A DNA stretch of 52,706 nucleotides from the NCBI GenBank assembly GCA_027624955.1, contig JAQBTG010000027.1, positions 1 through 52,706 of the forward strand, in the 5' to 3' direction. A program made the position numbers and the translations under genes. The DNA comes from Pseudomonadota bacterium. Its GTDB lineage: Bacteria; Pseudomonadota; Alphaproteobacteria; UBA828. The stretch's first letter is position 1. The number at the start of each line of letters is the position of its first letter. A model generated the notes under the pieces. It ran no database searches and was not told where the DNA came from. It saw nothing but the letters and a program-made list of their open reading frames with translations. Below, in pieces: positions 9,238 to 10,318 of the stretch.

Positions 9238-9447
9238 ATGGCTAATGGTACTGTTAAATGGTTCAACCCGACAAAAGGGTTTGGCTTCATCGAGCCGGAA
9301 GATGGTTCGAAAGATGCGTTCGTGCATATCAGCGCTGTCGAACGTTCTGGTTTGCCCGGTCTGTCGGAAGGCCAGCGCGTGTCGTTCGAGCTGGTTTCGG
9401 GTCGCGATGGAAAAATGGCTGCTGAAAACCTGTCGCTCATAGACTAA
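9238..9447 (+). CDS. cspA: Cold-shock protein (CspA family)
   Basis: This 69-residue single cold-shock domain protein is an RNA/ssDNA-binding RNA chaperone. RNP1 (KGFGFIE, residues 16-22) and RNP2 (DAFVHIS, 29-35) are intact, and the N-terminus [18 protein letters not shown] is typical. ATG 9238 is preceded by AAAAGGAAAA. A long structured leader (about 8989-9237) precedes it, and a short hairpin plus a small basic protein gene follow, so a two-gene mRNA with partial termination is likely. The symbol denotes the family; the specific paralogue is not assigned. Confidence 0.95.
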
Positions 9448-9506: not shown

Positions 9507-9707
9507 TTGCCCCGAAAACCCAACTATCGATTTGAACGAATCGAGCGCGAACGCCAAAAGGCCGAAAAAAAGGCCGCGCGGACGGCGGCTCGAGCTGAGC
9601 GTAAACCTGTGCCAGACGGCGGGGACGAAAATGCCGTCGAGTCTGGTGAGGGAGACGCGGCCCGGGATGACTCCGATACGGGCGATTCAGACTCGGTGCA
9701 AGACTGA
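9507..9707 (+). CDS. Small basic/acidic conserved protein downstream of cspA
   Basis: This 66-residue protein starts with MPRKPNYRFERIERERQKAE, a Lys/Arg-rich helix-prone segment, and ends in a strongly acidic Asp/Glu/Ser tail from about residue 40. The start is TTG at 9507, supported by GAGGGGAA six nt upstream. I recall short proteins with this PRKPNYRFER opening in other alphaproteobacteria but cannot confirm it here. The charge pattern would suit nucleic-acid or ribosome contact. The function is unknown, and linkage with cspA suggests a role in cold or growth adaptation. Confidence 0.7.
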   Translation: MPRKPNYRFERIERERQKAEKKAARTAARAERKPVPDGGDENAVESGEGDAARDDSDTGDSDSVQD

Positions 9708-10090
9708 CCCCACCCAGCACTGACGACAACCGGACGGTGTGACGGCGTCTTCGCCCGTTGCCATGTCCGGCGTACGCCATTTGCAGCGGCCAGTAGGCGC
9801 TCGCTTACTGTTGCGTCGCCGTAGGTCCGGTCGACAGCGTTTGCTTGGAGTGGCCGCTTGGCCTTCGACGCCCGCAAAAGGGGTGTTGTGGGCGGCGCCC
9901 GGGAAGGGGTTCGGGTCGCGAAGGAGGAGTGATGGTTCAGCGCAGGGAAGGAACCAGTCGCGATGGATCCCGAATCGATCTGCTTAAAATCACACCGTCC
10001 ACAACGCTGTCCATCCTATAGAACCGTGTCACCAGCGCTTTGATCTAGATCAATAGATTCAAACATTCTGCCGTCCAATCGTGCTGCCGG
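9708..10090. other. 383-bp gap between convergent genes
   Basis: I see no convincing gene here. The frames that stay open on the minus strand continue antisense to the small gene at 9507 and look like shadows. The only strong element is the FNR/FixK-like palindrome at 10040-10053, with a TATAGG on the minus strand at 10020-10015. Confidence 0.5.
10040..10053. promoter_or_regulatory. Perfect FNR/FixK-type anaerobox
   Basis: TTGATCTAGATCAA matches the consensus TTGAT-N4-ATCAA exactly and is fully palindromic. FNR/FixK/Anr proteins bind such sites, usually centred near -41.5. No annotated gene starts just downstream on either strand. On the minus strand TATAGG at 10020-10015 sits about where a -10 box is expected for a class II site, so a minus-strand transcript starting near 10005-10008 is the best candidate. 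Confidence 0.65.
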
Positions 10091-10318
10091 CTATCTTTTG
10101 TGGCTGAGCGGCGTGAGGCGCAGGATTTCGAACTTGTTGAGCAGATGCGTGCTGCCGTCTTCGGATTCAAAGGGCATGAATGTCACCGAGGAATCGTTCA
10201 AAAGATCAGAAACGCGCACATCGATATTTATAAATACATTGCCTTGCATCGAGATGCCGTCCGACATCTGCAATTGCACTTTGACGCGCGCTTTTCTGAC
10301 AAAAAATTTATTGGGCAT
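10091..10318 (-). CDS. Small conserved-looking protein of unknown function
   Basis: This 75-residue protein begins MPNKFFVRKARVKVQLQMSD and is rich in predicted beta strands: alternating hydrophobics in VKVQLQM, GNVFINIDV and VTFMPFE, then a C-terminal LNKFEILRLTPL. There is no signal peptide, membrane helix or cysteine pair. It is the last gene of the minus-strand run, 24 nt after phnW, and probably shares that transcript. The compact strand pattern suggests a small barrel, but I do not recognise the family with certainty. Confidence 0.7.
   Translation of the reverse strand: MPNKFFVRKARVKVQLQMSDGISMQGNVFINIDVRVSDLLNDSSVTFMPFESEDGSTHLLNKFEILRLTPLSHKR

Follow-up and report, generated by a model that had tools for sequence, protein, structure and literature searches.

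The window (the whole stretch of 52,706 nucleotides that was analyzed) comes from an assembly of 3.58 Mb in 84 contigs that is 98.25% complete. We refer to the window sequence as W, to the window's own genome as G000, to related genomes as G001–G011, and to loci by L numbers. An intergenic gap at 9708–10090 is flanked by a 66-amino-acid open reading frame (ORF) on the plus strand and a 75-amino-acid ORF on the minus strand, and it holds an exact FNR/FixK palindrome, TTGATCTAGATCAA, at 10040–10053. The sequence readout bore out the original prediction of this box between convergent genes. The palindrome reads the same on both strands, and the strand given for it below is that of the promoter.

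9507–9707, plus strand: 66-amino-acid ORF from the ORF list, downstream of cspA (9238–9447) and convergent with the RNA; a similar ORF is present in G003 and in G004 (locus L010)
9882–10005, minus strand: conserved structured RNA element, 124 nt, identified by conservation in relatives, covariation, and fold scores
9885–9897, minus strand: closing helix (helix 1), 3' strand, CGCCGCCCACAAC
9916–9921, minus strand: inner helix 3, 3' strand, UCGCGA, invariant in five sequences
9923–9931, minus strand: anti-Shine-Dalgarno-like loop segment CACUCCUCC, present in W, G003, G002, and G008 and shortened in G007
9934–9952, minus strand: invariant block UCCUUCCCUGCGCUGAACC in the loop, identical in all five sequences
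9958–9963, minus strand: inner helix 3, 5' strand, UCGCGA, invariant in five sequences
9993–10005, minus strand: closing helix (helix 1), 5' strand, GUUGUGGACGGUG (alignment columns 1–13 pair with 110–122)
10005, minus strand: predicted transcription start, from the box center at -41.5 and the end of the closing helix
10013–10018, minus strand: -10 hexamer TAGGAT, 21 nt from the box, with the spacing kept in relatives
10040–10053, minus strand: FNR/FixK-type palindrome TTGATCTAGATCAA (exact match, center 10046.5), putative activator site
10091–10318, minus strand: 75-amino-acid DUF6812-like gene, upstream of the RNA on the same strand and in the same position in G002, G003, and G007

The 75-residue ORF matched DUF6812 with 22.1 bits (the cut-off is 27.1), and the link of this gene to the RNA in W, G002, G003, and G007 may be one of position only. 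A Pfam search with the 66-residue ORF (9507–9707) gave no match; this protein is charged, with a K/R-rich start and a D/E/S-rich end.

The motif TTGATN4ATCAA occurs once in the window, as compared to 0.04 expected sites, and at least one site was present in 4 of 100 shuffles. Genome-wide, G000 has 11 such sites. Apart from the one in the window there are 10, of which 7 fall within ORFs as predicted by a simple longest-ORF rule, so the palindrome alone is weak evidence.

Conservation of the promoter and the RNA

We searched 60 genomes with the DNA of the gap, and seven of them (including G000) had matches. The matches in G002 and G003 (83% identity) correspond to window positions 9879–10053 and stop where the box ends on its outer side. 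On the minus strand, W, G002, G003, and G007 share one order: DUF6812-like gene, box, -10 hexamer, and RNA. The half-sites of the box are complete in these four (the centers are CTAG, CCAC, CCAA, and CTAA, respectively), and the boxes of G004 and G005 have one half-site mismatch each. Between W and G003, G002, or G007, 12, 12, or 13 of the 14 bases of the box are identical, as are 61, 61, or 53 of the 67 bases of the RNA core (9964–9898), versus 10, 11, or 5 of the 21 bases of the spacer. Behind the RNA, 36, 42, or 37 of 174 bases are identical, a difference to which gaps add because the compared sequences are shorter there. Conservation in relatives had been proposed as a check on the box, and its half-sites, the -10 hexamer, and the spacing do recur in three MAGs (G002, G003, and G007). 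We take the site to be real because the box, the -10 hexamer, and the RNA recur in relatives while the spacers drifted. A fourth relative, G008, also has the RNA; its box is not visible because the contig begins within the RNA.

The -10 had originally been placed at TATAGG. This hexamer is indeed present at 10020–10015 on the minus strand, but TAGGAT, at 10018–10013, is the hexamer whose distance from the box is kept in relatives. The distance is 21 nt in W, G002, and G004 (all TAGGAT) and in G003 (TAGTAT), and 22 nt in G007 (TAGTGT). This is the arrangement of a class II FNR/FixK-type promoter, with TTGATN4ATCAA near -41.5 of the predicted start, a -10 hexamer, and no need for a -35; a sigma-70 scan that requires two hexamers did not list the TAGGAT promoter. 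In the part of PMC3688515 that covers E. coli promoters, of 23 FNR-activated promoters whose start is known, 19 carry the site at -41.5 ± 4.

With the center of the box at -41.5, the predicted +1 falls within one base of the closing helix of the RNA. The base in this position is the first G of GUUGUGG in the closing helix for W, G003, and G002 and the second base of that helix for G007. When the folds included an extra 20 nt of upstream DNA, G003, G002, and G007 kept the closing helix, which then starts one base before the -41.5 start, and the W RNA folded differently. Comparison with relatives supports the prediction of a class II FNR-type promoter that would read the minus strand into an unannotated RNA. 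The box had also been described as having no gene to control; it does have a target, namely this conserved minus-strand RNA.

Across the five-sequence alignment of the RNA, 93.2% of 148 cells pair; the structure (model R1, 33 pairs) was built from the same five sequences as were tested, which favors it, and one of the five is truncated. Six pairs changed on both sides, versus 0–1 in slid controls, and the covariation score was reached in none of 500 shuffles. Further pair types were no more numerous than in shuffles (the count was reached in 113 of 500). Helix 3 argues neither for nor against pairing because it never varies. Pairing of helix 4 breaks down in G007, and G007 alone has a different fold in the center. 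Fold z scores were -2.9, -2.3, -2.6, and -2.5 for the RNA strand versus -1.1, +0.4, -0.9, and -1.0 for the opposite strand; similarly, 138 of the 148 cells pair on the RNA strand, with 7 G-U pairs, versus 132 cells and 1 G-U pair on the opposite strand. In these models, the compensatory changes, the fold scores, and the G-U pairs favor the minus strand as the RNA strand. The CACUCCUCC segment of the loop presumably resembles the 3' end of 16S rRNA, and two changes in the loop are private to W.

Behind the RNA, G007 has a terminator with eight T (L009, 1613–1633; 0.4 in shuffles). None was found behind the RNA of G002 (L007), and none close behind that of W, where a minus-strand terminator-like site at 9589–9573 lies inside the 66-residue ORF (shuffles gave a mean of 2.6 sites in the region). 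The transcript had been predicted to run antisense to the cspA-linked ORF. The comparison does not support this: the conserved stretch stops near 9882, some 175 nt short of the ORF, and the RNA of G002, G007, and G008 has another gene behind it in the same orientation. Read-through from the RNA into the region of the cspA-linked ORF could still occur. Among 4,227 Rfam families, none matched at the element with E up to 1; three weak matches lie outside the element and below the gathering scores.

Carriers, anaerobic genes, and regulators

When run on the 22 genomes of the order, model R1 detected five carriers of the RNA (G000, G002, G003, G007, and G008). Among 385 genomes of the class, it found two with the RNA (G000 and G002), both from the window's genus; this search used stricter filters and scored nine candidates per genome, and G003, G007, and G008 are not among the genomes listed for it, a list that leaves out 363 genomes with no match. 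A search of genome contigs with the core pattern gave four matches, which correspond in length to the contigs of G007, G008, G002, and G003, and hence no new carriers. Plasmids gave no match, and neither did viral contigs when searched with a 23-base core. Of the relatives without the RNA, G001 has the DUF6812-like gene next to the dehydrogenase gene, G004 (L010) has kept the -10 hexamer along with its one-mismatch box, and G005 has its one-mismatch box but no R1 match. A weak match in G001 (L011) lies in another gene context and was dropped.

We also compared the carriers for UbiU/UbiV-type genes, which are involved in anaerobic ubiquinone synthesis. Peptidase_U32, a family that is wider than UbiU/V, had matches in 4 of the 22 genomes of the order (G002, G003, G007, and G008). 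The proteins from G002, G007, and G008 pass the cut-offs for UbiU, UbiV, or UbiT, and the G003 protein, which was tested as a cut piece, scored 362 bits against a cut-off of 440. UbiU/UbiV-type genes are thus present in four of the five carriers of the RNA versus none of the 17 other genomes of the order (Fisher P = 6.8e-4, uncorrected for kinship or incompleteness). In the fifth carrier, G000, there was no Peptidase_U32 match and UbiUV was not found. FNR sites before ubiT/U are widely reported, according to the portion of PMC11707229 that describes them.

An FNR/FnrL/FixK-type regulator is encoded in the same genome as the RNA in G002 and G003, and none of FNR type was found in the 98.25% complete assembly of G000. 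Proteins with the CX4CX2CX7C cysteine spacing and the ETVSR helix (ETVCR in L046) are encoded by G002 (two), G003 (three), and G006 (one). G008 has one such protein with its frame broken by TAG, G011 has one FNR-type protein by similarity (60% identity), and G007 has only more distant Crp/Fnr members. We found no close FnrL match in G001, G004, or G005. (The helices were read for 20 of the 26 matches to regulator candidates; the other six were assessed by phmmer only, among the matches listed.) The best NCBIfam score of L032 was to FnrL (191.7 bits, below the cut-off of 300). Two G000 proteins are over the cut-off for HTH_Crp_2, L012 (with RETVAR) and L013 (with RETVSR), and both are without CX4CX2CX7C; the reading of cNMP-domain places in G000 covered those outside the long frames (L057, L059, and L060–L062).

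The flanks of the fnr gene of G003 and G002 lie on separate contigs in G000, at C13:14657 and C30:46367–46490 (L130 and L131). The C13 flank continues into other genes, and the C30 flank ends 123 bases from the contig end. Judging from these sequences, fnr is likely absent from G000, but because one flank ends so close to a contig end, the gene could be unassembled. In G002 and G003, fnr is near genes that resemble, by eye, those for tungsten-containing aldehyde:ferredoxin oxidoreductase and ferredoxin (L097 and L098). The prediction of an oxygen-responsive RNA therefore stands in part: the RNA is supported by comparison, but oxygen control in G000 is doubtful because no FNR-type regulator was found there.

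Interpretation and alternatives

Overall, we estimate a probability of about 0.68 that the locus holds an FNR/FnrL-type class II promoter driving a new, probably trans-acting family of small RNAs with a C-rich loop. Comparison among genomes provides the box, the -10 hexamer, their spacing, the RNA structure, the favored strand, and the independence from the downstream gene; we infer transcription itself, the binding of FNR, action in trans, and the existence of targets. A conserved noncoding structure with its own promoter that does not depend on its neighbors is what is expected of a small RNA, and this one would act in trans. The evidence from the neighbors is that in W and G003 a convergent ORF lies downstream of the RNA, but in G002, G007, and G008 the downstream neighbor is a 3-hydroxyisobutyrate-dehydrogenase-like gene with the same orientation as the RNA. 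The downstream gene thus differs between carriers, which speaks for an RNA acting in trans.

The gene order in the latter three genomes would also fit a cis-acting leader or attenuator of the dehydrogenase-like gene, as would the terminator of G007, which lies between the RNA and this gene. Nevertheless, we consider a leader to be quite improbable and disfavor it because of the changes of context between carriers: the RNA is still conserved in W and G003, where the neighbor is the convergent ORF, and G001 keeps the dehydrogenase gene without the element. The promoter-like site that G002 has between the RNA and the gene argues weakly in the same direction (0.4 such sites were expected). Alternatively, the plus strand might encode a short peptide, whose conservation we would be seeing: there is a frame with a GTG start, behind GGAGG or GGGG, whose first residues (VKVQRREG) are the same in all five sequences. 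In the first 19 codons, though, amino-acid-changing differences outnumber synonymous ones in all 10 pairs of sequences (2–14 versus 0–2), which is why we disfavor this candidate and regard it as very improbable; furthermore, the length of the frame ranges from 19 to 44 amino acids across the four complete cases, the GGAGG is only one base from the GTG, and pairing and folding favor the minus strand. That the palindrome is a chance match without function would be in keeping with the number of exact sites in G000 and their frequent location inside ORFs, but it is scarcely credible given that the place, the half-sites, and the spacing are the same in three relatives in which the adjoining spacers drifted.

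A different kind of alternative concerns G000 only, namely that FNR and anaerobic respiration were lost there, leaving the promoter without regulation or use and the box and the RNA as relics, which would still work in G002, G003, G007, and G008. G000 has neither an FNR-type regulator nor a Peptidase_U32 match that we could find, the sequences that flank fnr in G003 are separated in it, and the loop of W has its two private changes. Also, the RNA is lost or damaged in G001, G004, and G005, none of which has a close match to FnrL or UbiUV. Against this, the box of W (a perfect palindrome), its -10 hexamer, and its closing helix are all intact, and the fnr gene may have gone unassembled at the contig end. 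We view a relic as somewhat unlikely. In G000, the RNA may be newly orphaned or under the control of another Crp-family protein, or else the assembly may lack the regulator gene. A more specific version, in which a lineage-specific, FnrL-activated family of RNAs that silence ribosome-binding sites through an anti-Shine-Dalgarno loop in the absence of oxygen outlived FNR in the window's lineage and was taken over by another Crp-family protein such as the RETVSR paralogue L013, seems rather improbable to us.

For the family as a whole, we return to the preferred reading of an FNR/FnrL-activated small RNA and propose the following mechanism. The palindrome would be the activator site, of FNR/FnrL type, of a class II (-41.5) promoter, and this promoter would drive a minus-strand noncoding RNA of at least about 124 nt that starts near 10005. 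The ends of the RNA would pair, and its center would expose the conserved C-rich loop. In family members that live at low oxygen, the depletion of oxygen would lead an FnrL-type regulator to activate the RNA, whose loop would then reduce the translation of target mRNAs by pairing with their ribosome-binding sites. The loop itself and the analogy to NfeR1 and FnrS (described below) suggest that it probably acts in trans on ribosome-binding sites. In the window, the pattern GGAGGAGTG occurs only as the complement of the RNA itself.

Enterobacteria are known to have FNR-activated small RNAs. FnrS of E. coli, like the candidate RNA, is a small RNA with an FNR site at the class II position (at -42.5 for fnrS, as given in an excerpt of PMC3688515); it is induced without oxygen and represses many mRNAs (PMC8139620, in part). 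Unlike FnrS, the candidate is from a different class of bacteria, and the two have no detectable relation in sequence or structure because no Rfam family matched at the element. Within the alphaproteobacteria, the section of PMC4263372 on small RNAs names two from Rhodobacter sphaeroides, RSs0019 and RSs2461, with FnrL bound in their putative promoters, and leaves them uncharacterized. They resemble the candidate in being alphaproteobacterial small RNAs with putative FnrL-type promoters. We know them by description, and R1 had no match outside of the candidate family among the 385 genomes of the class. NfeR1 (alpha-r14) of rhizobia, as outlined in PMC10746234, has an unpaired C-rich anti-Shine-Dalgarno segment that blocks ribosome-binding sites, and the candidate shares this kind of segment with NfeR1 and with cuckoo-type RNAs. 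However, the alpha-r14/cuckoo RNAs form three hairpins whose loops all contain CCUCCUCCC (PMC10746234 and PMC3927594, both in excerpt), while the candidate has a single CUCCUCC segment (shortened in G007) in one closed domain, and Rfam gave no alpha-r14/cuckoo match at the element. Titles and the beginnings of abstracts in the open-access literature included none about such an RNA in these bacteria. The locus would therefore add a conserved and structurally defined candidate family of small RNAs in uncultured alphaproteobacteria, with a sharp prediction of the start site and the regulator. The related genomes form a natural series that keeps or loses the RNA together with anaerobic ubiquinone synthesis, and G000, which has kept the RNA without a visible sensor, is an informative exception.

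Boxes elsewhere in these genomes

We surveyed all 10 of the other sites in G000, all 11 in G002, and 7 of 8 in G003 (the survey covered all but C52:165, which is near a contig edge); in G007, the survey covered the site before its own Crp/Fnr gene. None of the 10 other boxes in G000 was seen before an anaerobic gene. Intergenic boxes make up 6 of the 11 other sites in G002 and 5 of the 7 that were read in G003. In G002, a UbiT gene (L092) has a box at a distance of about 86 nt, and a NapD-family gene (L101) has one at 100 nt. Boxes are also found before genes of the 2Fe-2S ferredoxin type (L106, and L113 by likeness). Finally, in G007, a box identical to TTGATCTAGATCAA (L042, 2308–2321) lies directly before the frame of one of this genome's own Crp/Fnr-family genes, which suggests that the gene is autoregulated.
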